64,000 bases of DNA from Lepidostoma basale (Eukaryota > Arthropoda > Insecta > Trichoptera > Lepidostomatidae): the NCBI GenBank assembly GCA_022606425.2, contig JAHDVF020001598.1, positions 416,001 to 480,000 on the forward strand, in the 5' to 3' direction. The notes beneath the pieces were generated by a model. The model worked only from the letters and a program-made list of their open reading frames with translations. It was not told the origin of the DNA and ran no database searches. Made by a program: the position numbers and the translations under genes. Positions within the stretch are counted from its first letter, which is position 1; each line of letters starts with the position of its first letter. Of this stretch, positions 245 through 63,880 are shown piece after piece.

Positions 245-418
245 TAAGAATGAAAACGTTTGTTTTCATGAAGATTTTATATGAATGACACATTTCGCCT
301 GTCTAAGGCATTTTCGAATATCAAATGTTGATAATGCCTTAGACAGGCGAAACATGTCATTAATATAAAATATAATAAAACTTCTAGAAAACAGACGTTT
401 CAATTCGTATTAATTATG
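245..418. repeat. HH-A foldback repeat
   Basis: Two copies of HH-A meet head to head. Both outer ends carry the family box ('gaatgaaaacg' and its complement). Both inner parts carry 'gcctgtctaaggca' or its complement around a short loop near 317-327. On the plus strand the inner part has the hammerhead-like layout listed at 328-358. No coding capacity. Non-autonomous by inspection; assignment to Penelope-like repeats is inference. Confidence 0.75.
328..358 (+). ncRNA. hammerhead-like motif, HH-A type (degenerate)
   Basis: Layout: TTGATAA core, one spacer T, stem II GCCT/AGGC around a 5-nt loop, GAAAC, AT, GTC. Relative to the hammerhead core, C3 is T and G8 is A. I find no convincing stem I. 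It is probably an inactive descendant. The opposite strand at 288-316 has the same layout with GAAAT before GTGTC. Confidence 0.4.
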
Positions 419-3845: not shown

Positions 3846-3881
3846 GACAGCTGTTTCGCCAAACGATGTTGGCATCATCAG
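3846..3881 (-). ncRNA. hammerhead ribozyme-like motif, HH-C type
   Basis: Read on the minus strand: CTGATGA, spacer T, stem II GCCAAC/GTTTGGC with loop ATC, GAAAC, AGCT, GTC. The core matches the hammerhead consensus and A-C/G-U of stem III can pair across the AGCT loop. Stem I is weak: G-C and another G-C around a mismatch. Good candidate by core, uncertain by stem I. Confidence 0.6.
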
Positions 3882-3906: not shown

Positions 3907-3942
3907 CTGATGATGCCAACATCGGTTGGCGAAACAGGTGTA
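3907..3942 (+). ncRNA. hammerhead ribozyme-like motif, HH-C type
   Basis: CTGATGA, spacer T, stem II GCCAAC/GTTGGC with loop ATCG, GAAAC, AGGT, GTA. The site triplet is GTA instead of GTC, still of the NUH type. It can also fold as one long hairpin because ACACCTG before it complements CAGGTGT after it. Confidence 0.5.
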
Positions 3943-16721: not shown

Positions 16722-16850
16722 TAATAATTAAATAAAACGATGTTTTTTTAACTGCTTCCACTTTTGTCTTTATTTCTATAGCGACCGGTTTCGCCCGGCT
16801 TCCTGGTATTGACAGACCAGTGTGTATTTCTTCCATCAAGAGTTTTTATT
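16722..16850 (-). repeat. HH-B half copy
   Basis: Contains the family start 'aaataaaacgatg', 'acttttgtctttatttc', then the hammerhead-like part at 16,783-16,815. One arm only; the mirror copy is missing. Confidence 0.7.
16783..16815 (-). ncRNA. hammerhead-like motif, HH-B type (damaged)
   Basis: On the minus strand: CTGTCAA, spacer, CCAG and its imperfect partner, GCGAAAC, CG, GTC. Core position 6 is T and position 8 is A, and stem II is partly mispaired. Probably inactive. Confidence 0.4.
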
Positions 16851-19159: not shown

Positions 19160-19335
19160 CTATTTAATAATAAATATTAAAATGCACGACATGTTTCGGA
19201 GGATACATCCATCTTCAGGTGTAAAAATATAATAAAAACTAAACAAAGAAAGACTAATATAAAAAAACGCATTTAAAATTCGATACAATTCAAATTTAAA
19301 AATTAACCTGTGGTTTTTGTTATAAGTAGGTACTA
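19160..19335 (-). repeat. HH-D copy
   Basis: Starts with the AT-rich 'actatttaataataaat', then the hammerhead-like part, then 'aaaaactaaacaaagaaag' and 'aaattcgatacaattc'. The same order recurs at 25,380 and 26,280. Confidence 0.75.
19188..19218 (-). ncRNA. hammerhead ribozyme-like motif, HH-D type
   Basis: Minus strand: CTGAAGA, spacer T, stem II with one mismatch (GGATG/CCTCC), loop TAT, GAAAC, AT, GTC. The bases after GTC (GTG) pair with CAC before the core, giving at least 3 bp of stem I. The core is fully consensus. Confidence 0.55.
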
Positions 19336-19464: not shown

Positions 19465-19552
19465 TTTTCTCGCGACAGCTGTTTCGCTAATCGATGATAG
19501 CATCGTCGGGTTTTACAATCAACTAGCGGAACAGCTGTCGCTTATTTATCGA
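19465..19552. repeat. HH-C foldback remnant
   Basis: Left arm on the minus strand (19,474-19,509): CCGACGA, T, stem II GCTA/TAGC, GAAAC, AGCT, GTC. The right arm keeps only 'agcggaacagctgtcgc' on the plus strand. Core position 4 is C. Confidence 0.5.
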
Positions 19553-21984: not shown

Positions 21985-22250
21985 GGTAATTGAAAATAAC
22001 TTTGTTTATTGTCCACAAATACCTCTATCTTCAGGTGTAAATATATAATAAAAACTATACAAAGAAGGACAAATATAAAAAAACGCATTAAAAATTCGAT
22101 ACAAAAATTAAAATTGTTATATCGAATTTTAAATTCATTTTTTATATTTATCTTTTTTTGTTAAGTTTTATTTATATGAACCTGAAGATGTCCTCCGAAA
22201 CATGTCTCGTTTTTTTATGTTTTGTGGATAATAAACAAAGTTATTTTCAT
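21985..22250. repeat. HH-D foldback repeat
   Basis: Left arm on the minus strand with 'cctctatcttcaggtgtaaa' and 'actatacaaagaagg'; right arm on the plus strand with 'cctgaagatg' and 'cataaacaaag'-like end. The right arm's motif (22,182-22,206) keeps CTGAAGATG, then TCCTCCGAAAC, AT, GTC, but has lost the 5' half of stem II and the loop. Confidence 0.65.
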
Positions 22251-25324: not shown

Positions 25325-25510
25325 ATCAACGATGTACTTATAAAATTGAAAAACGTTTTGTTTACTATCCACAAAATATTTACAAAAATTAAAAAAACAT
25401 GACATGTTTCGGAGGATACCTCCATCTTCAGGTGTAAATATATAATAAAAACTAAACAAAGAAACACAAATATGAAAAACGCATTTAAAATTCGATACAA
25501 TAATTATTGA
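25325..25510 (-). repeat. HH-D copy
   Basis: 'ttgaaaaacg', 'ttgtttactatccacaaa', the hammerhead-like part, then 'aaaaactaaacaaagaaa' and 'aaaattcgatacaat'. One arm. Confidence 0.75.
25401..25431 (-). ncRNA. hammerhead ribozyme-like motif, HH-D type (best core)
   Basis: Minus strand: CTGAAGA, spacer T, perfect 5-bp stem II GGAGG/CCTCC with loop TAT, GAAAC, AT, GTC. The core is consensus. Three of the first four stem I positions can pair (the closing pair is A/C). A 2-nt stem III loop means cleavage would be expected mainly in a dimer, as with other short-stem-III hammerheads. Confidence 0.6.
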
Positions 25511-26222
25511 AAATTGGAGCTTGGAAGACTAAAAGTAGAAAGGGTATAAAAGGAGAAAGAAGTAAATGGAGGAATCTGATTATTAATGATGTTTTCTCCC
25601 AAATTCAGTTGTTATGAATATTATTATCTTTTTGAATGGCTTTTTACATCATTACATTGCGAGCCAAATAGATGTACCTAAAGGGTATATTTGGAATGAA
25701 ACCTTAATGTGCCAAAAATAAATTTTATTGTACCGAATTTTTCAATTAACTATCGCCGATTATATTAGCTACCTAACCAGATGATCAAACTATAGTAGCG
25801 AACTCTCGAAACCGGTCAGAACTATAATAAAATTAAAATAAGTAGATTCATACCTAATAACTAATAATGTTGCGGTCTATCCTTTCTGTTAACCCCTTTA
25901 GAAATGCAGCGAAATGATTAGTTAGTCAATTAATTAGTTATTTAGTGATTACCAATATCTAATCCACAAATATTAGATTATGGTAACATAACTTTTAAAA
26001 TGCACGTGATTGCATCAGCTTAACAGGTTTATCTAAGATAAGGCGTCCATCTCCAGCGGTCCATCACAGATCGCAGCCGTCCACCTTCACAGCATCTTCT
26101 CACACGTCTCGTGAAATGATACAAGATGACATGCTTTGTCTGAAGCTGTCTACATCATTCAATATTTATTTCTACCAGTGCTTGAAGTTGAAACATTATA
26201 ATAATGTATATATTTTAAAATA
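25511..26222. other. non-coding DNA with a LINE-K tail relic
   Basis: 25,868-25,925 resembles the LINE-K end ('ctatcctttctgttaacccc', 'tgattagttag'). At 25,775-25,812 a sequence ends 'ctcgaaaccggtcag', reminiscent of the GAAAC-CG-GTC end of HH motifs. No gene. Confidence 0.4.
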
Positions 26223-26224
26223 AT

Positions 26225-26440
26225 TCTGTTATTTACTTATGAATTTGAAAAACTTTGTTTAATCCACTATTTAATAAAAAATATTAAAAAACACAACATG
26301 TTTCGGAGGATACCTCCATCTTCAAGTATAAAAATATTATATAATAAAAACTAAACAAAGAAAGACTAATAAAAACCTATTTAAAATTCGATACAATAAT
26401 TCAAACAGAAAAATTAAACTGTGCTATTTGTTATAAGTAG
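26225..26440 (-). repeat. HH-D copy
   Basis: Same order as at 25,325, ending in 'aaattcgatacaataattc'. One arm. Confidence 0.75.
26295..26325 (-). ncRNA. hammerhead-like motif, HH-D type
   Basis: Minus strand: TTGAAGA, spacer T, GGAGG/CCTCC with loop TAT, GAAAC, AT, GTT. Core position 3 is T. The site triplet is GTT. Confidence 0.5.
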
Positions 26441-27859: not shown

Positions 27860-27940
27860 AGTTTTTATAACACTACATTGTTGTCAAACCAATCAGTTTT
27901 GCTCCCACTGGAGCTTCGTCAGGATTAAAAAACAAACTGA
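27860..27940 (-). repeat. HH-H copy
   Basis: 'ataacactacattgttgtc' followed by the hammerhead-like part. The same family at 63,805 has TTATTATTTTCAACAACC before it. Confidence 0.55.
27891..27922 (-). ncRNA. hammerhead-like motif, HH-H type
   Basis: Minus strand: CTGACGA, spacer A, stem II GCTCC/GGAGC with loop AGTG, AAAAC, TG, ATT. The core start is consensus but GAAAC is AAAAC. Stem I is supported: GGTT after the site pairs with AATC before the core (with one G-T). Confidence 0.5.
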
Positions 27941-28304: not shown

Positions 28305-28502
28305 AAATAATTATATAAATCGATGTTTTTTTTAACTACTTCCACATTTGTCTTTATTTCGACAGCGACTAGTTTTGCCAGGCTCGCTGGCATCGAGAAC
28401 TAGTCGTTAATGTCCAGTCTGTCAATGTCAGCGATCCTGGTGAAACCGGTCGCTGTCGAAATATAGTCAAAAGTGGAAATGGTTAAAAAAAATCGTTTTA
28501 TT
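28305..28502. repeat. HH-B foldback with a motif on each arm
   Basis: Left arm (minus): 'cgatg', 'acttccacatttgtcttta', then the motif at 28,367-28,400 with CTCGATG start and GCAAAAC-TA-GTC. Right arm (plus): motif 28,419-28,451 with CTGTCAA, stem, GTGAAAC, CG, GTC, then 'aaaaatcgttttatt'. Both cores are altered. Confidence 0.65.
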
Positions 28503-28965
28503 TAAGGATTAATTGTATCTCAATAGAGACGAAGATGCAAATTGGAAACAGAATATGGTGATCGAGGTGTTTACAGGACTTATGACCTGCCATTGGTCGG
28601 GTTAGGCGCATGCTTTATGTAATAAAACATTCCCCATTCCACCTTTTCTTATGACCACTATGTCTGACAAATTATTGGAAGTTGTATATATGTTAATCTG
28701 TAACACCACACTTCACATGGTAGTTTCAATCTACACACTAGCGCCATCTATGAAGATTGGATTTTAAGCATTAAGCAGAAAATCTTTTTATTAACGCAAT
28801 GTGAAAGGTTGCCGCCATTATCGTATTGCTAGATAACGCCTGGAGATGTCACTCTAATTTGTATGCTATAACTTGGACTAGTTTTTGTTCCTACAACATT
28901 TTGAATGTATCCAGTATTCGTCTACAAGTATTTGTATACATTCAAAATATCGTTTAATTTAATTG
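28502..28965 (+). repeat. Rep-I copy, longest
   Basis: Complete from 'ggattaattgtatctcaat' to 'tttgtatacattcaaaat', about 460 bases. Internal landmarks: 'tctgacaaattattggaag', 'ctagcgccatctatgaag', 'aacgcctggagatgtcac'. No coding frame. No terminal inverted repeats beyond a short ATTTTGAATGTAT at 28,900 that mirrors the last bases. Confidence 0.75.
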
Positions 28966-31386: not shown

Positions 31387-31521
31387 ATACAATGGTACAC
31401 AATGAAATAAAAGTACACAATGAATTAAAGACGCCCTTATATTCCTTACTAATTACTATTATAAACACTAAATAAAACGATGTTTTTTAACTACTTCCAC
31501 TTTTGTCTTTATTTAGACAGC

Positions 31522-31554
31522 GACCGGTTTCGCCAGGCTCGCTGGCATCGACAG
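31522..31554 (-). ncRNA. hammerhead-like motif, HH-B type
   Basis: Mirror of the motif at 31,627 on the minus strand with the same core, CTGTCGA, stem II GCCAG/CTGGC, GAAAC, CG, GTC. Confidence 0.5.
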
Positions 31555-31626
31555 ACTGGTCTAATAATAAAAATTAAAAGACTAATAATAAAAATTAAAA
31601 CCCATTGTATTAAACACGAGACCAGT

Positions 31627-31659
31627 CTGTCGATGCCAGCGAGCCTGGCGAAACCGGTC
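31627..31659 (+). ncRNA. hammerhead-like motif, HH-B type
   Basis: CTGTCGA, spacer T, perfect stem II GCCAG/CTGGC with loop CGAGC, GAAAC, CG, GTC. Four stem I pairs are possible: GCTG after the site with CAGT before the core (one G-T). Core position 6 is T instead of A, so catalysis is doubtful unless the alignment is off by one. Confidence 0.55.
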
Positions 31660-31719
31660 GCTGTCTAAATAAAGACAAAAGTGGAAGTAGTTAAAAAACA
31701 TCGTTTTATTTAATTATTA

Positions 31720-32312
31720 TTTAAAATGAACTTCTATCAAGAGATTTCAGTAAAATCATTTGATTATATTATAAACACATTTATTGTATAATACAATATT
31801 TAGTTTTCTTTCTTTTAAGTTAAAAATAAATAATTATTACTTATAAGCATTATTAAATATTTACATTACGCCACTGACAAATCATAAGCTTAACAAAAAA
31901 TAGTATTAAAAGACATTTATAGGTGAGCGTTGATTGATATCAAAGGTACCGCTGATACAAACTATAAGATTCTTATTTGTTTTGCTTTATCTGCTTTTAG
32001 ATCTAAGTTTAATGTGCTTAAGATGTGATAGAGTAAAGCTACTTATGTATTATATGATCAGGCAACAATCTTATACTTTTGTGTTATTGATACACGAAGC
32101 TTATATGCATACAAAGAGATAAGCAAAAGAAACAAGGAATTGAATTTAAATTTGGAACATATTGTAAAAACATATTTTTTGTTGTTTCGATATATTTTCG
32201 TCGGTTCTTGAGTCAATATATTATTAACAAACATGTTTCTTTCGTATTTGCCATCACTTTGTGTTGTGGATTCACATTTTATTAAACATTTAAAAACATT
32301 GCATATTTTTTT
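31720..32312. other. AT-rich non-coding DNA
   Basis: An HH-B border piece at 31,740-31,765 ('gagatttcagtaaaatcat'). No gene. Confidence 0.4.
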
Positions 32313-37765: not shown

Positions 37766-37962
37766 ATGTTTTTTTAATAACTATGTAATTATGGTTTTGA
37801 CCGGTTTCGCCAAGCTTGGTTACATCGACAGACTACTGACAGATAACCTGTCTGTTGATGTCAATCAGCCTGGCGAAACTGATCGCTGTCGAAACAAAGA
37901 CAGAAGTGGGTTTAGTTATTAAAAAAAAACATCGTTTTATCTCTTTAATATTTAAAATGAAC
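37765..37962. repeat. HH-B foldback
   Basis: Arms with 'gaccggtttcgcc' (minus, motif 37,799-37,831: CTGTCGA, TAACC-like stem, GGCGAAAC, CG, GTC) and plus motif 37,852-37,884 (CTGTTGA, TGTC, GGCGAAAC, TG, ATC), then 'aaaaaacatcgttttat'. Cores altered, stem II partly mispaired. Confidence 0.65.
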
Positions 37963-38754: not shown

Positions 38755-38875
38755 AAATTCACATCGTTTATTTTGTTCTCCCGATGATGAAGGAGTAAAA
38801 AGCCTTCGAAACAAGTCGAGAAAAATATACTCAACACTGAAAAAAACAGTGTTTTATTTCATTAAAAAAATGTGT
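38755..38875 (+). repeat. HH-E copy
   Basis: 'tttattttgttctc', the motif, then 'gagaaaaatatactcaacac' and 'aaaaaaacagtgttttattt'. The same box follows the motif of the mirror-oriented copy at 56,270. Confidence 0.75.
38781..38817 (+). ncRNA. hammerhead ribozyme-like motif, HH-E type
   Basis: CCGATGA, spacer T, stem II GAAGG/CCTTC with a 9-base loop, GAAAC, AA, GTC. Stem I is well supported: GAGAA after the site pairs with TTCTC before the core, 5 bp. Core position 4 is C instead of U in both HH-E copies. Confidence 0.6.
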
Positions 38876-39738: not shown

Positions 39739-39810
39739 CTTCTTCTTCTTTTTTTAAAATAAATATAACTGCAATTAGTATTTTTACAACACTTTATTAC
39801 ACTTTTCACA

Positions 39811-39843
39811 TACATATTTCGGTTATGACATAACCTTTTTCAG
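39811..39843 (-). ncRNA. hammerhead-like motif, HH-F type
   Basis: Minus strand: CTGAAAA, spacer A, stem II GGTTAT/ATAACC with loop GTC, GAAAT, AT, GTA. Stem I pairs TGTG with TACA (one G-T). Core position 8 is A; GAAAC is GAAAT but A-T still allows a stem III pair. Confidence 0.5.
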
Positions 39844-40214
39844 TGTATAAAATTTTAACAATAAAATAAAACAGAGTGATAACTGATATACTAAAAAGGG
39901 TGGAGTTATGTATAAAGGTGGAGGGGATATAAATAGAATTGATGATGGGGGAGAGATAATGGAAACATTTCGAACATGGGAATTGAAGTTAAATTTAATT
40001 TTAAAAAAAAAAGGAATTAAAAAAGTAATGAAAATAAAATATGATATAAAAAAAAAATTAAAGTTAAATTCAATTCCCATGTTTGAAATGTTCCCGTTAT
40101 CTCTCCCTTCTTCTCAATCCTAATTATACCCTCTCCACCTTGATACATAACTCCACAAATTTTTATTGTATAAGTGATCACTCTGTTTTATTTCTATTGT
40201 TAAAACTTTGTACA

Positions 40215-40246
40215 TTGAAAAGGTTTTGTCATAACCGAAACATGTC
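40215..40246 (+). ncRNA. hammerhead-like motif, HH-F type
   Basis: TTGAAAA, stem II GGTTTT/ATAACC (one mismatch) with loop GTC, GAAAC, AT, GTC. Stem I pairs TGTG with TACA. Core position 3 is U and 8 is A. Confidence 0.5.
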
Positions 40247-40554
40247 TGTGAAAAATGTAATAAAGTGTTGTTTATTCAAATACGAATCCACAACACAAAG
40301 TAAAGAGGAATATAGAAGAAATTAACATTCTTCATTCAGTTCCTATTGATGATAATGTTAATTTTATTTATACAACATTTTATAGGTAAGAGTAACCTCT
40401 GCTTATACGAAAATGGATAATATTGAGTGAGAAATGTTTTATTTTGGTTCACTTAAGGGTTAAGGATCATCTTTATACTTTGATATTGAACTGGTATTTT
40501 AATTTTCGCTATATTTACCTTTATTTTATGTTGTGAATTCACACTTTGTATTTT

Positions 40555-43189: not shown

Positions 43190-43690
43190 TCCATACTAAA
43201 TTATTAATACTTATGAAAACGTCTGTTTTATGGAAGTTTTATTATTGTTTACGGGAATGACAAGTCTCGCCTTTTTAAAGCATCTTGAAATTTGACAAAA
43301 GACATTTTGCAATAACTGCTTTTGAAGCTATTCCCTATTTGCATTATATAGTATATTTTGTTAATTAATAAGAATGAAAACGTATGTTTTCTAAAATTTT
43401 TTATGATAATGACATGTTTCGCATTTTTAAGGCATCTTAAAATTTTACATAAAACGTTTGGGAATAACTGCTTCTAAAGCTCCATTCATTGTTTGCTTTA
43501 TATTTTTTTTAATTATTGATATGAATGATAAAGTATTTTTTATAAATGTTTTAATATAGTTTATGGGAATGACATATTTCAAAATATAAAAAAAGCTTCG
43601 AGCAAACAGTCGTTTTCATTCATATCATACATTTTATATACCTAGTTTTAAGTTCTATATCATTGGTCAAGAAATAAAAAAATAATTTAA
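43190..43690. repeat. HH-A tandem units (period about 161)
   Basis: 'ttattaatacttatgaaaacg' at 43,201 and 'ttaattaataagaatgaaaa' at 43,361 begin two consecutive units, each with 'aatgacaagtctcgcc' or 'aatgacatgtttcgca', 'aaggcatctt', and 'taactgcttctaaagct'. A third, changed unit and a reversed arm follow (43,510-43,640). On the minus strand the second unit has AAGATGCC, TGCGAAAC, AT, GTC. Confidence 0.65.
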
Positions 43691-45690: not shown

Positions 45691-45872
45691 GAGTTGCAAC
45701 CCGGACACATTTCGGAGATCGGGCTTTCGCAATGGCAGGTCTGTCCACACGGAATATTCTCCCTGCACGCCTCAGATGTATCGACAATCAGACTAATTTA
45801 AAATCTCACATAAAAACCACCTTTTCAAAATATTGCTTAAAGTATAAACAACTATTATCTGTTCATTTATTT
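45691..45872 (+). pseudogene. CR1-like C-terminal fragment
   Basis: In frame: RTHFGDRAFAMAGLSTRNIL, PARLRCIDNQTNLKSHIKTT and FSKYCLK. This is the FGDRAFAxAxPxxWNxLP..LRCxxxxxxFKxxLKTHLF pattern at the C-terminus of CR1/Rex-like RTs, as at 23,710-23,860. Confidence 0.75.
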
Positions 45873-45879
45873 TTTACAA

Positions 45880-46292
45880 CACTTTGAATGTATACAAATA
45901 CTTGTAGACGAACGACGTTCGTCTACAAGTATTTGTATACATTTAAAATGTTGTAAAAAAACAAAAAACTGGTCAAAATTATAGCATATACGAGTAGATT
46001 GGAGTGACATCTCCAGGCGGTTTCTAGCAATGCGGTAAATGGCGGTAGCCTTTCACATTGCGTTAAAAAGATCTTCTGCTTAGTGCTTAAAATACAATCT
46101 TCATAGATGGCGTTAGTGTGTAGATTGAATATACTACCATGTAAAGGGTGGTGTTGGAGATTAACATATATACAACTTCCAAAAATTTGTCAGACATGGT
46201 GGTCATAAGAAAGGTGAAATGGGGAATGTTGCCATTACATAAAGCGTGCGTTCAATCCAACCAATGACAGATCATAAGTCCTGGAAACTCAT
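45880..46292 (-). repeat. Rep-I with palindromic end
   Basis: Minus copy of Rep-I. Its outer end (45,880-45,960) is a near-perfect palindrome centred at 45,917: 'ttgtatacatt' and 'aatgtatacaaatac' arms. The first part of Rep-I ('ttgtatctcaat') is missing; it ends at 'aatgacagatcataagtcct'. Confidence 0.7.
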
Positions 46293-47709: not shown

Positions 47710-47808
47710 TATTATTATAACACCTGACGATGTCAACATAGGTTGACGAAACAGCTGTCGCGTAAAATAAAAATACAATTGTGATACATAAAACAAAGTT
47801 TTTTTAAT
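47710..47808 (+). repeat. HH-C single arm
   Basis: Motif at 47,724-47,759, then 'taaaaatacaattgtgatac' and 'aaacaaagttttttta' downstream. Confidence 0.75.
47724..47759 (+). ncRNA. hammerhead ribozyme-like motif, HH-C type
   Basis: CTGACGA, spacer T, perfect 6-bp stem II GTCAAC/GTTGAC with loop ATAG, GAAAC, AGCT, GTC. Core consensus at all conserved places. Stem I: G-C at the first and third positions, mismatch between. Confidence 0.65.
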
Positions 47809-54308: not shown

Positions 54309-54340
54309 GACTAGTTTCGCTTGTACCCAAGCATCCTCAC
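54309..54340 (-). ncRNA. hammerhead-like motif, singleton type
   Basis: Minus strand: GTGAGGA, spacer T, perfect stem II GCTTG/CAAGC with loop GGTA, GAAAC, TA, GTC. Core position 3 is G. Stem I has two G-T pairs only. No other copy in the window, so it represents a further family or a lone fragment; a LINE-K tail follows at once. Confidence 0.5.
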
Positions 54341-54940: not shown

Positions 54941-56217
54941 GGTCCTTACATATGAAATTGGCGTTTTGCCGTAATGGCAACTTTGATCTCAAATATCTTC
55001 TCTTTGGTTAGGAATTCCAAATTCAAATTTATACAGCTATTTACTCAAGTATTTGTGTTTCGAAAATTATAATTCATTTGTTTTTTCCTCAATTGTTTTT
55101 TTTTCTTTGCGTCACTCAGTTTACAAAATGGAAAACTTGAAATATCGCGTTATTTACGAGTACGAGTTCCACCGTGGCACCAGTGCTGCAGAAACGGCTC
55201 GAAGGATTAATGATGTGTATGGCGACGGTGCCGCAAAAGAAAACACAGTGCGTTTTTGGTTCCAACGTTTTCGTTCTGGAAATTTCGACCTGCAGAACAA
55301 GCCCCGTGGACGGCCGGAGACCAAAGTTGATAATGAAGAATTGAAGGCTATTGTGGAAGCGGATCCATCGCAAACCACGTCCGAGTTAGCTGCAGGCTGC
55401 GGTGTTAGTGATAAAACTGTTTTAATCCACTTGAAGCAAATTGGGAAGGTGAAAAAGCTTGAAAGGTGGGTACCTCACGATTTGATTGAAGCAAATCAAC
55501 AAACGCGCGTTGACTGCTGCGTTGCATTACTCAACCGGCACAATAATGAAGGGATTTTGAATCGAATCATTACCTGTGATGAAAAGTGGATCCTGTATGA
55601 TAATCGGAAGCGCTCATCGCAATGGCTGAACCCTGCCGAACCAGCCAAACCATGCCCCAAGCGAAAATTGACTCCAAAAAAGTTACTTGTGAGCGTTTGG
55701 TGGACTAGTGCTGGTGTCGTTCACTACAGCTTTCTTAAATCTGGCCAGACGATTACGGCAGATGTCTATTGTCAGCAACTGCAAACCATGATGGAAAAGC
55801 TAGCTGCTAAACAACCGAGGCTGGTTAATCGCTCTAGGCCACTGCTGCTTCATGATAACGCTAGACCACACACTGCACAACAGACGGCTATCAAATTAGA
55901 AGAGCTTCAATTGGAATGTCTAAGACATCCACCGTACTCTCCGGACCTTGCCCCAACAGATTACTATTTTTTCGAAATTTGGATAACTTCTTGCAAGGGA
56001 AAAAATTCAACTCCGATGGGGCAGTCCAAACCGACTTCAAAGATTTTATTGATTCCCGTCCGAATGGTTTTTTTAGTAAAGGGATCGATGAACTACCTAT
56101 GAGATGGCAAAAGTGCATAGATAGCAATGGTACATACTTTGATTAAATAAATATATTATATTAAAAAAAAATCAACTTTATGTTCCTCCCATACAAAACG
56201 CCAATTTCATATGTAAG
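54941..56217 (+). mobile_element. mariner-type DNA transposon, nearly complete
   Basis: Perfect 24-base terminal inverted repeats: 54,945-54,968 (CTTACATATGAAATTGGCGT plus TTTG) and 56,194-56,217 in complement. Outside the left copy stands TTAGGTC; outside the right copy the expected partner (GACCTAA) is not seen, so the last bases or the TA duplication have changed. Between them lies one transposase gene on the plus strand (55,128-56,146). Total length near 1.28 kb is the normal size for mariner. One frameshift makes it non-autonomous. The exact repeats and single lesion indicate recent arrival compared with everything else here. Confidence 0.93.
55128..56146 (+). pseudogene. mariner transposase with one frameshift
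   Basis: A transposase that would cut and paste the element in the nucleus. The start is taken as ATG at 55,128 (MENLKYRVIYEYEFHRG); the upstream Met at 55,053 adds 25 residues not seen in the family. Order: first helix-turn-helix (about 10-50, FHRGTSAAETARRIND), second helix-turn-helix (about 75-105), WVPHDL at 114-119, catalytic Asp at 151 (ITCDEKWILYDN), 243 (LLHDNARPH) and 278 (APTDYYFF). Thirty-four residues lie between the last two, the DD34D pattern of mariners. After FF (about 55,974) one base is missing. The remaining codons (RNLDNFLQGKKF, RPNGFFSKGIDELPMRWQKC, SNGTYFD) continue in the next frame to 56,146. Total about 340 residues, the family's normal length. Confidence 0.93.
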
Positions 56218-56269: not shown

Positions 56270-56422
56270 ATGAAATAAAACGCTGTTTTTACCGCTTTTG
56301 AGTTTATTTTTCTCGACATGTTTCGAAGGCTTACACCTTCATCATCGGAAGAATGATATAAACCGTTTATAAAAAATGGAAAAAACAGTGTTTTAATTCA
56401 TAAAAATTCTTCATTATGGTAT
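56270..56422 (-). repeat. HH-E copy
   Basis: 'gaaataaaacgctgttttta', 'ttttctcgacatgtttcg', then 'atcggaagaatgatataaac' and a mirrored 'aaaaaacagtgttttaattc'. One motif, listed next. Confidence 0.75.
56315..56348 (-). ncRNA. hammerhead ribozyme-like motif, HH-E type
   Basis: Minus strand: CCGATGA, spacer T, perfect stem II GAAGG/CCTTC with loop TGTAAG, GAAAC, AT, GTC. Stem I: GAGAA after the site pairs with TTCTT before the core, 5 bp with one G-T. Compared with 38,781, the base change in the stem (C to T) keeps pairing. Core position 4 is C. Confidence 0.6.
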
Positions 56423-56852: not shown

Positions 56853-56888
56853 CTGATGATGTCAACATAGGTTGACGAAACAGCTGTC
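56853..56888 (+). ncRNA. hammerhead ribozyme-like motif, HH-C type (best overall core)
   Basis: CTGATGA, spacer T, perfect 6-bp stem II GTCAAC/GTTGAC with loop ATAG, GAAAC, AGCT loop closed by A-C/G-T pairs, GTC. All conserved core bases are present. Stem I before the core is ATAT and after the site GCGA, so stem I is nearly absent in this copy. Confidence 0.6.
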
Positions 56889-57004: not shown

Positions 57005-57037
57005 CTAAAAGATGGCAGCGAGTTGCCGAAACCGGTC
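57005..57037 (+). ncRNA. hammerhead-like motif, degenerate
   Basis: CTAAAAGA, spacer T, stem II GGCA/TGCC with loop GCGAGT, GAAAC, CG, GTC. The core start is not consensus. The sequence before it ('taaaccacatataggagac') resembles HH-G. Confidence 0.4.
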
Positions 57038-57224: not shown

Positions 57225-57310
57225 CGTTTCGCCTATCTTCTTTATAAAAATATTGTAACAAATGATGATGTCATCATAAGTTGACGAAACAGCTGTCGCG
57301 AAAAAAAAAT
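57225..57310 (+). repeat. HH-C arm next to an HH-A piece
   Basis: 'gaatgactcgtttcgcctat' is an HH-A piece. At 57,262-57,297: ATGATGA, T, GTCATC with changed partner GTTGAC, GAAAC, AGCT, GTC. Stem II has two mismatches. Confidence 0.6.
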
Positions 57311-57319
57311 TGTTAAACC

Positions 57320-58188
57320 ATAAAATTAGCGTTTTATAATTTAGCAGTTAATAAATGTAAAATAATATTTTTATGTTCTTATTGGGGTCCTGGTATAAGT
57401 CTTGTAGCAAGGACTTGAAGTCTTGAAGACTTGAATTACTTATAATGTTTTCTTTCAAGAAAAAATTGTTTAAATATTTATTTTATATGTACAAAACTAA
57501 CAAAACACCGATGGGAGGCTTCTGTGTCCGAAACATGTTTGTATTTTAATTTAAAAAATATATATACTCGTATAGTGTTAGTGATGTTTACAAAGTAATT
57601 AACATTGTTCAATTAATTCGTAATACAAAGTAATGGCGAATATAGAAGAAACATTTTATGGTTTGATTCGTCCCTCCTTATTTCCTGTTAAATACAACAA
57701 TTAATTAATTTTTCAATTACAAAAATGTATTTCTACAAGTCATCATAAATCATAAATAATTACTTGGTATTGCAAATAGTTACTCTTGTGTTTATATCAA
57801 CATAAAACTCTATAAAAAATTATCAACTAAATGATACATTTCCTAACTGCTTATGTCAATACATCTAAAAGGTGCTTCCGCTAGCGATAATTAAATAGCC
57901 TGAGGGGTGTGATAAATAATTGAAGGGGAAGAAATAAACAGAATCAACACGAAAGCAATTATATAATTATTTTATCTCACGTAAAACAACTGCTGCCGAT
58001 GAGGCAGTTGGCATAACTAACAGACGACTTGGAGCCTTTACCTACTGGGACCGGGCTGACCCTGAATAGATAATAAATTAGATTAGAATGTTTGAAAATA
58101 GAACACAACATGTAATGTTTTTTTCATCTTCTAATAGCCCGCCTAAGGGCCTAAGCTTTTCATAATTGTTCCTTTATTCTTCTTATAG
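57320..58188. other. AT-rich non-coding DNA
   Basis: At 57,510-57,540 'cgatgggaggcttctg' and 'tccgaaacatgtttg' recall HH-D without a proper stem. No gene. A GC-richer piece at 57,990-58,070. Confidence 0.4.
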
Positions 58189-59592: not shown

Positions 59593-59735
59593 ACACTACG
59601 ATACTTTAACATTATAACCTGTTAAATTAAAAAAAACTTTGTTTTATGTGTCACAATTTGTATTTCTTATTTTTTGCGACAGCTGTTTCGTCAACCTATG
59701 TTGACATCATCAATCAAATGTTAAATTTTCGTGAT
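59592..59735 (-). repeat. HH-C arm
   Basis: 'tttggccgaaacactacg', 'aaaaaaactttgttttatg' and the motif on the minus strand at 59,678-59,713: TTGATGA, T, GTCAAC/GTTGAC with loop ATAG, GAAAC, AGCT, GTC. Core position 3 is T, otherwise consensus. Confidence 0.65.
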
Positions 59736-61596: not shown

Positions 61597-61928
61597 AACA
61601 TTATCAAATATCTGAGAAACTAATTAATACGAACGAAAACGTATGTTTTCTAGAAGTTTTACTATAGTTTACATGAATGGCAGTTTTCGCATTTTCTAAG
61701 GCGTAATCAATTATCCGAGTAACTAATTAATACGAATGAAAACGTAATTTTTCTAGAAGTTTTATTTATGTTTATAGGACTGATAATTTTCGCCTTTCTA
61801 AGGCATAATCAAATGTCTGAGTAAGTAATTAATACGAATGAAAACGTATGTTATCTACAAGTTTTATTTCAGTTTAGAGGAATGTCAATTTTCGCATGTC
61901 TAAGGCATTATCACATGTCTTAACCGCC
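61597..61928. repeat. HH-A tandem array, three units of 102-103 bp
   Basis: Unit starts ('taattaatacgaa') at 61,621, 61,724 and 61,826, preceded by the end of another unit. Each unit contains 'aaaacgta', 'tctagaagtttta'-like, 'ttttcgc', 'ctaaggc' and 'aatcaa'. On the minus strand every unit ends in a GCGAAAA-type hairpin matching the HH-A motif position. Mutations differ between units, so the array is not new. Confidence 0.75.
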
Positions 61929-63804: not shown

Positions 63805-63880
63805 TTTATTATTTTCAACAACCAACCGGTTTCGCTCCCGCCGAAGCTTCGGCAGGGTTACAAAAGACACGTGGTGCAGT
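63805..63880 (-). repeat. HH-H copy
   Basis: 'tttattattttcaacaacc', then the motif, then 'gggttacaaaag'. One arm. Confidence 0.65.
63825..63856 (-). ncRNA. hammerhead ribozyme-like motif, HH-H type (best stem I)
   Basis: Minus strand: CTGCCGA, spacer A, stem II GCTTC/GGAGC (one G-T) with loop GGCG, GAAAC, CG, GTT. Stem I pairs GGTTGT after the site with GTAACC-type bases before the core, five to six pairs. Core position 6 is C; the sister copy at 27,891 has A there but a changed GAAAC, so the family consensus fits the hammerhead at both places. Confidence 0.6.

Follow-up and report, generated by a model that had tools for sequence, protein, structure and literature searches.

Introduction

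Penelope-like elements (PLEs) reportedly carry minimal type I hammerhead ribozymes, a class attributed to Cervera and de la Pena in 2014 and to Lunse, Weinberg and Breaker in 2017. A 2020 review calls the activity and in vivo role of PLE hammerheads "a mystery" and raises the possibility that the motifs cut as dimers (PMC7761336). A double hammerhead is described for newt, viroid and PLE motifs in sources that include this review and PMC7229834. Rotifer PLEs are reported to have inverted pLTRs, an optional 31-bp tail and copies that lie mostly head-to-head, an arrangement attributed by the authors to self-priming on an antisense template (PMC3846280). In the experiments described for Anolis, the PLE enzyme extends both DNA strands from one internal RNA site, insertion proceeds in vitro with a mutant hammerhead, and the hammerhead cuts only with protein added (PMC11167929). 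Metazoan non-LTR retrozymes are given as reaching more than 120,000 motifs per genome, in the axolotl (PMC7229834).

Here we analyse a 64-kb stretch of DNA from Lepidostoma basale (C720:416001-480000 of the 769-Mb genome), called the window throughout, in which a preliminary description had noticed many hammerhead-like motifs. Our results support reading them as retroelement-derived hammerhead-like RNA motifs.

Results

Hammerhead-like sites exceed chance expectation

We scanned the window for the hammerhead layout (core, stem II, GAAAC, a short loop and GUH) and found 16 sites when no more than one mismatch in the core was allowed. The same scan gave a mean of 0.13 sites and a maximum of one per dinucleotide shuffle (n=60), and the reversed window sequence gave zero. 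The preliminary description had proposed this comparison with shuffled sequence, and equal rates, which it had said would speak against it, were absent. Sites with a consensus core numbered five in the window and none in the 60 shuffles. Across the 769-Mb genome, a strict pattern for one family of motifs, family A below, matched 4637 times, with a few sites counted twice, and the reversed pattern matched nowhere. A short motif in an A/T-rich genome might appear by chance or as a compositional artefact; against the shuffle and reversed-sequence controls, including the reversed family-A pattern, that explanation retains practically no probability. The observation in the window is real and well above chance.

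Five places had been named as carrying fully consensus cores, and the layout is present at each: 56853-56888 (+), 47724-47759 (+), 3881-3846 (-), 25431-25401 (-) and 19218-19188 (-). All five have CTGANGA, GAAAC and GTC, which bears out that part of the claim, but none is the textbook consensus, each having one extra base after CTGANGA; the motif at 19188-19218 (-) additionally has one stem II mismatch.

Searching the window with Rfam 15 returned no hammerhead family, either at gathering score or when the E limit was relaxed to 10, which gave 22 matches. This silence suggests that current counts of such ribozymes in insect genomes may be too low. Several microRNA matches among the low-scoring Rfam hits coincide with inverted repeats. 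A 91-nt near-perfect palindrome at 45870-45960 attracts Rfam microRNA matches below gathering scores.

Motif searches were also run on viral contigs, where four patterns gave zero matches and two gave 14 and 7, which we took as chance. Eighteen of these 21 matches have at most three consecutive stem II pairs, the first of which is fixed by the pattern; two (L108 and L115) have four, and one (L114) has five, three of them Watson-Crick. Thirteen window motifs measured in the same way have four to six.

A covariance model and covariation of the helices

A covariance model, R1, was built from alignment A2, which comprises 12 copies from six families (A, C, D, E, F and G) aligned without structure. 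With filters off and an E limit of 10, R1 matched the window 47 times; 25 of these matches, the 12 seeds of the model included, scored above 18.4 bits, and default filters recovered 24 of the 25. The line at 18.4 bits is the best R1 score, under default filters, in 557 kb of bacterial DNA taken from 71 of the 107 loci (107 bacterial matches) found by a 16-base-pattern scan of prokaryote genomes, a control that is biased towards matches because every locus in it contains CGAAACAGCTGTCGCG.

We then fitted 45 R1 matches, 24 from the window and 21 from 200 kb of the same genome, to the structure (alignment A5). In A5, 87.6% of cells are paired and the covariation score is 0.617; shuffles give 63.0% and 0.191. 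Two-sided changes occur in all four stem I pairs and in five of the six stem II pairs, and the signal is lost when partners are shifted by one to three columns. The number of pairs with two-sided changes is 10 versus 9.3 in shuffles, 188 of 500 of which match 10; the support from A5 lies in the paired cells and the covariation score, not in this count. By helix, pairing reaches 79.8% of cells in helix I, 90.9% in helix II and 96.4% in helix III. The smaller A2 gave 88.8% of cells paired versus 67.1% in shuffles and a covariation of 0.636 versus 0.207, with one of its 13 pairs misplaced. Stem I takes the forms ACAC/GUGU in family E, UGCC/GGCA in family G and UUCUU/GAGAA in family D, and is weak in several family-A copies. 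That loops and stems vary between families while pairing is retained, as the preliminary description had stated, is shown by the covariation of helices I and II.

Eight families of motifs share the window

Grouped by sequence, the motifs form eight clear families, A to H. At least nine had been claimed; beyond the eight there are one or two weak candidates with odd cores, at 57009-57037 (+; 19.9 bits), maybe a ninth family, and at 57502-57545 (+; 13.2 bits), maybe a tenth, so that the figure of nine was about right.

Family A includes the motifs at 56853-56888 (+), with core CTGATGA, an extra T, a 6-bp stem II, helix III ACAGCTGT and GTC (52.7 bits), and at 47724-47759 (+), with core CTGACGA (55.9 bits). 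R1 also matched family-A copies at 57262-57297 (+; core ATGATGA), 19474-19509 (-; CCGACGA), 59678-59713 (-; TTGATGA) and 3846-3881 (-). The last is the left arm of a head-to-head pair whose right arm, at 3907-3942 (+), ends in GTA, not GTC. A decayed family-A copy lies at 2630-2677 (-; 33.2 bits). Family B is found at 328-358 (+), with core TTGATAA (C3U with G8A), helix III ACATGT and a score of 18.4 bits that equals the best bacterial control, and at 43405-43447 (-; 20.0 bits). A three-copy tandem array at 61599-61920 has a 102-nt unit that matches family B, with a decayed motif inside.

In family C, a head-to-head remnant of a type-1 PLE at 31460-31784 contains motifs at 31522-31554 (-) and 31627-31659 (+), both with core CTGTCGA (A6U) and helix III ACCGGT; its pieces are 96-99% identical to the termini of the L177 PLE described below, the piece at 31621-31784 matching the L177 3' end at 96%. 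Two further head-to-head pairs lie at 28361-28451 (28361-28404 on the minus and 28419-28451 on the plus strand) and at 37793-37890 (37793-37837, minus; 37846-37890, plus), the latter scoring 12.7 and 16.9 bits, below the 18.4-bit line, and placed by likeness. A single family-C motif lies at 16777-16821 (-; 23.1 bits).

Both family-D motifs have core CCGATGA: the one at 38781-38817 (+) has a 5-bp stem I and helix III ACAAGT, and the one at 56315-56348 (-), with helix III ACATGT, retains helices I and II in its minimum-energy fold, in which three core bases are also paired. Family E is found at 25401-25431 (-; core CTGAAGA, helix III ACATGT), 26295-26325 (-; an R1 match), 19188-19218 (-; 38.5 bits) and, decayed, at 22176-22212 (+; 17.8 bits, below the control line). 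Directly downstream of the 19218-19188 motif, on the same strand, is a tRNA-like sequence (19153-19082; Rfam tRNA, 29.5 bits). Family F occupies 63824-63855 (-; core CTGCCGA, extra base A, helix III ACCGGT) and 27885-27928 (-; CTGACGA; 22.6 bits), family G 54309-54340 (-; GTGAGGA, helix III ACTAGT), and family H 40209-40252 (+; TTGAAAA, C3U with G8A) and 39805-39849 (-; CTGAAAA, extra base A; 19.4 bits). An open frame at 54987-56102 (+), with Mos1-like HTH and Transposase_1 domains, is a mariner transposase copy. A dispersed repeat beginning (AAGGA)TTAATTGTATCTCAATAGAGACGAAGATG is present at 28505, 39728 and 47800 and in locus L129. Of the 11 window copies inspected, 3 follow hammerhead tails of families C, H and A, either directly or at a distance of up to about 80 nt, so that the junction is a recurrent one.

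An extra U or A follows A9

The window motifs lack the textbook type I feature of a stem II that begins directly after A9. One extra U or A stands between A9 and G10.1 in all eight families, a few single copies excepted. With up to one core mismatch allowed, the layout could be placed 26 times in the window and the 200 kb; of these placements, 24 have exactly one base at this position (T, or U, in 20 and A in 4), one has two, one has three, and none has zero. In the A5 alignment, 35 of the 45 rows have T here and the other 10 have A, and the model seeds lean the same way. Single window copies placed with none or two extra bases are those at 40209, 43859 and 44285; the copy at 40209 is without the extra base because one A is missing in it. 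The pair that follows remains G10.1-C11.1, with G in 44 and C in 40 of the 45 rows of A5.

The plus-strand hammerhead of chrysanthemum chlorotic mottle viroid (CChMVd) is reported to cleave with an extra residue at the same place, between A9 and G10.1. With its natural extra A, trans-cleavage is given as moderately slower; changing A to U makes it 3-4-fold faster, whereas a C or G in its place impairs cleavage strongly (PMC3705267). The near-uniform U/A insertion in the window fits the tolerance that this mutational work on a viroid hammerhead describes.

The cores themselves range from consensus to altered. In families A, E, F and G there are copies with a consensus core, family D has U4C, and family C, which sits on a PLE with a long open ORF, has A6U. 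Family B has C3U with G8A, TTGATAA appearing in 9 and CTGANGA in none of its 19 listed matches, a search whose pattern leaned that way; the same double change is found in three of the five listed family-H copies. The C3-G8 columns of A5 hold 30 C-G and 4 U-G pairs, 7 unpaired cells and 2 gaps. There is no U3-A8 cell in A5, where the sole family-H row (40209) is gapped at that column and few family-B rows score above threshold. According to published work, some natural hammerheads have U3-A8, and in vitro activity is on record for ribozymes built with this pair (PMC3088659). Judged from the sequences, the core changes of families B, C and H could weaken or abolish cleavage.

Palindromic helix III and ends at the predicted cleavage site

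Helix III is self-complementary in 36 of the 45 A5 rows, mainly as ACCGGT, ACATGT, ACAGCTGT and ACTAGT. The motifs share this self-complementary helix of one or two pairs with minimal PLE hammerheads, and its mostly palindromic form is what dimeric hammerheads would be expected to have. When seven motifs were folded as dimers by energy, two stem II hairpins joined by an 8-bp palindrome were obtained only for the motif at 47718. The dimer fold of the motif at 25395 retained both stem II hairpins with a longer stretch paired, and the other motifs favoured different pairings.

Counting only the exact site, with no shift, eight family-A copies genome-wide start immediately after GTC. A local check of family-B 5' ends found three starts exactly at the cleavage site among 59 matches, and four at -10. 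Thus, 5' ends at the predicted cleavage site are suggestive, not established.

Motifs of three families lie downstream of PLE open reading frames

A GIY-YIG search of the genome, in which 150 of 541 candidates were scored, gave at least 62 matches, and 24 loci were taken for inspection. We left out L178 and L179, whose stretches were too short to judge, the ambiguous L188, and L189 and L190, leaving 19 usable PLE loci. A same-strand R1 match follows GIY-YIG in 15 of these (L177, L180-L185, L191-L194 and L197-L200), with about one of 19 expected by chance from the background of 22 matches per 200 kb on both strands; L186, L187, L195 and L196 have no such match. The weakest of the linked loci, L200, has a family-E-like match of 17.2 bits, below the 18.4-bit line, and a stronger family-A match further on. 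The open frames of L189 (G000:C102) and L190 (G000:C729), which we take to be bacterial-type UvrC, indicate that those contigs contain bacterial DNA, which may stem from a symbiont or from contamination; neither of these two loci has an R1 match after GIY-YIG.

The linkage with family C is seen in L177. Its 758-aa open frame encodes a reverse transcriptase domain (RVT_1, E 1.4e-13 at 302-478) followed by a GIY-YIG endonuclease (E 6.6e-5 at 651-734) in a single ORF, as in PLEs, and lies between two inverted family-C motifs within 634-nt inverted repeats of 95% identity. Among the best 120 of 1341 relatives of this ORF, those with organism names come from insects (Phthorimaea, Euphydryas, Schistocerca and Diabrotica). 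Three GIY-YIG types pair with three motif families: C (L177, L192 and L193), E (L180, L181 and L194 among others) and F (L185 only). Within the window, a remnant of a type-2 PLE ORF C-terminus at 25507-25608 (-; 34 aa, 76% identical, E 3.4e-11) lies upstream of the family-E motif at 25431 and ends 75 nt before it.

For families A, B, D, G and H, the 19 loci show no tie to a PLE ORF, so that a PLE origin for those five rests on likeness; L183, L193 and L200 do hold lone matches to A or D, but these have the look of separate insertions. The preliminary description had pointed to PLEs and retrozymes as known homes of hammerheads. The first is borne out by the RT/GIY-YIG ORF linkage of C, E and F and by the PLE ORF end in the window, and the second becomes a rival reading, which we weigh below. 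Taken as sequences, the motifs are very probably putative minimal type I hammerheads, or decayed or altered descendants of such, that derive from the pLTRs of several PLE families and from short derivatives of these.

Head-to-head copies predominate

We compared the orientation of neighbouring copies. Among the 98 family-A matches listed of 4637, a set from which two double listings of one site had been removed, 15 pairs lie within 300 bp: 13 are head-to-head, 2 tandem and none tail-to-tail. The window has 12 neighbour pairs at most 450 bp apart, five of mixed family or including a doubtful site and seven within a single family. Five of these seven, including the four closest, are head-to-head, one is tandem (family B) and one tail-to-tail (family H). 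Loci L178 and L179 are also laid out head-to-head, with the GIY-YIG ORF ends facing outward. Judged by eye, families A and C each have two kinds of 3' end, the longer extending about 45 nt beyond the short one. The PLE traits of inverted or direct pLTRs, head-to-head copies and an optional tail are thus all present.

Many copies are palindromic, with matching arms around a short spacer, as would also be seen if these were foldback DNA transposons of MITE-like kind whose terminal inverted repeats hold hammerhead-like hairpins by accident. An accident of this sort is hard to square with stems I and II that covary around a conserved hammerhead core across families, the RT/GIY-YIG ORF linkage makes it unlikely for C, E and F, and a head-to-head structure is on record for PLEs in the rotifer account (PMC3846280). 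We consider a foldback origin very unlikely.

Some family-A copies are in tandem at 157- or 137-bp spacing, and at the tandem junction in L137 the long 3' end runs straight into the 5' start. Such copies could instead belong to non-autonomous elements that resemble retrozymes and follow a life cycle of their own, the short palindromic copies then not being truncated PLEs: a tandem transcript would be cleaved by its hammerheads to give a small circular RNA, which a PLE would reverse transcribe. Family A is the best candidate for this cycle, with its 4637 strict matches, its tandem copies including the direct 3'-to-5' junction and no PLE ORF tied to it, and PLEs are named as strong candidate movers of retrozymes (PMC7229834). 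Only 2 of the 15 close pairs are tandem, however, against 13 that are head-to-head, and helix III is of the minimal PLE kind. We regard a separate retrozyme-like cycle as possible, if unlikely, and prefer derivation from PLEs.

The sequence downstream of the motifs often contains a small hairpin. Of 31 copies, which are not independent of one another, 17 have AAC(N3-4)GTT in the 60 nt that follow the motif, compared with 6.1% of background windows. It lies 22-49 nt past the motif, as AAC(N3-4)GUU in RNA, in part of the copies of families A-E, whereas none of the six F, G and H copies has it in that 60-nt stretch.

R1 matches above 18.4 bits numbered 22 in twenty arbitrary, non-random 10-kb stretches (200 kb) of the same genome, which extrapolates to about 85,000 genome-wide (Poisson range about 53,000-128,000). 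With 25 in 64 kb, the window is about 3.5 times denser than these stretches and is therefore rich but not unique.

Discussion

The features above suggest how the copies may have arisen. Two RNA copies would pair via the palindromic helix III to form a double hammerhead and be cut after GUC. The PLE protein would nick AT-rich DNA and begin reverse transcription near the downstream hairpin, a starting point proposed here by analogy with the stem loop of the Anolis element (PMC11167929). Priming from both DNA ends would produce head-to-head, 5'-truncated inserts, of which most window sites, from several PLE families, would be short leftovers. Two-strand extension would also be expected to yield head-to-head inserts, and we infer that it is a better explanation here than self-priming.

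A bolder version of the PLE origin is that these motifs form a PLE hammerhead lineage with a fixed extra U or A in at least eight families, the fold being kept in some despite the A6 change (family C, L177), and serving the PLE reverse transcriptase as a signal for protein binding or priming, so that cleavage would be optional. We offer this as speculation and find it doubtful. The eight coexisting families, with both consensus and altered cores and three of them tied to an ORF, are a natural panel for asking whether cleavage, dimerisation or the fold alone is retained.

The kind of motif is already known; what is unusual is the density, the number of coexisting families and how nearly uniform the U/A insertion is. 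Also notable is that family C combines an altered core with a long open PLE ORF. The window motifs resemble the minimal type I hammerheads of PLEs in their very short helix III, mostly palindromic here, and in their position beside a PLE ORF; they may be set apart by the extra U/A seen in all eight families, a few single copies excepted. They resemble the CChMVd plus hammerhead in having one extra residue at A9/G10.1, the window motifs showing U and A only. That hammerhead is from a viroid and its inserted base is A, whereas the window motifs mostly have U, and a common origin is not implied (PMC3705267).

Metazoan non-LTR retrozymes, as described in PMC7229834, likewise hold type I hammerheads within small repeats, but their motifs are mostly canonical and their units, of about 170-400 nt, are tandem instead of head-to-head. 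The endonuclease-bearing Penelope of Adineta vaga (PMC3846280) and the Anolis element PAc (PMC11167929) share with the elements studied here an ORF with RT and GIY-YIG, terminal repeats and an optional tail, which the short and long 3' ends of families A and C resemble. In the Adineta vaga Penelope the terminal repeats are inverted and copies are mostly head-to-head, as here (PMC3846280). As far as the cited accounts go, the Adineta vaga and Anolis papers each concern one or few families, whereas at least eight hammerhead families occur here in one window.
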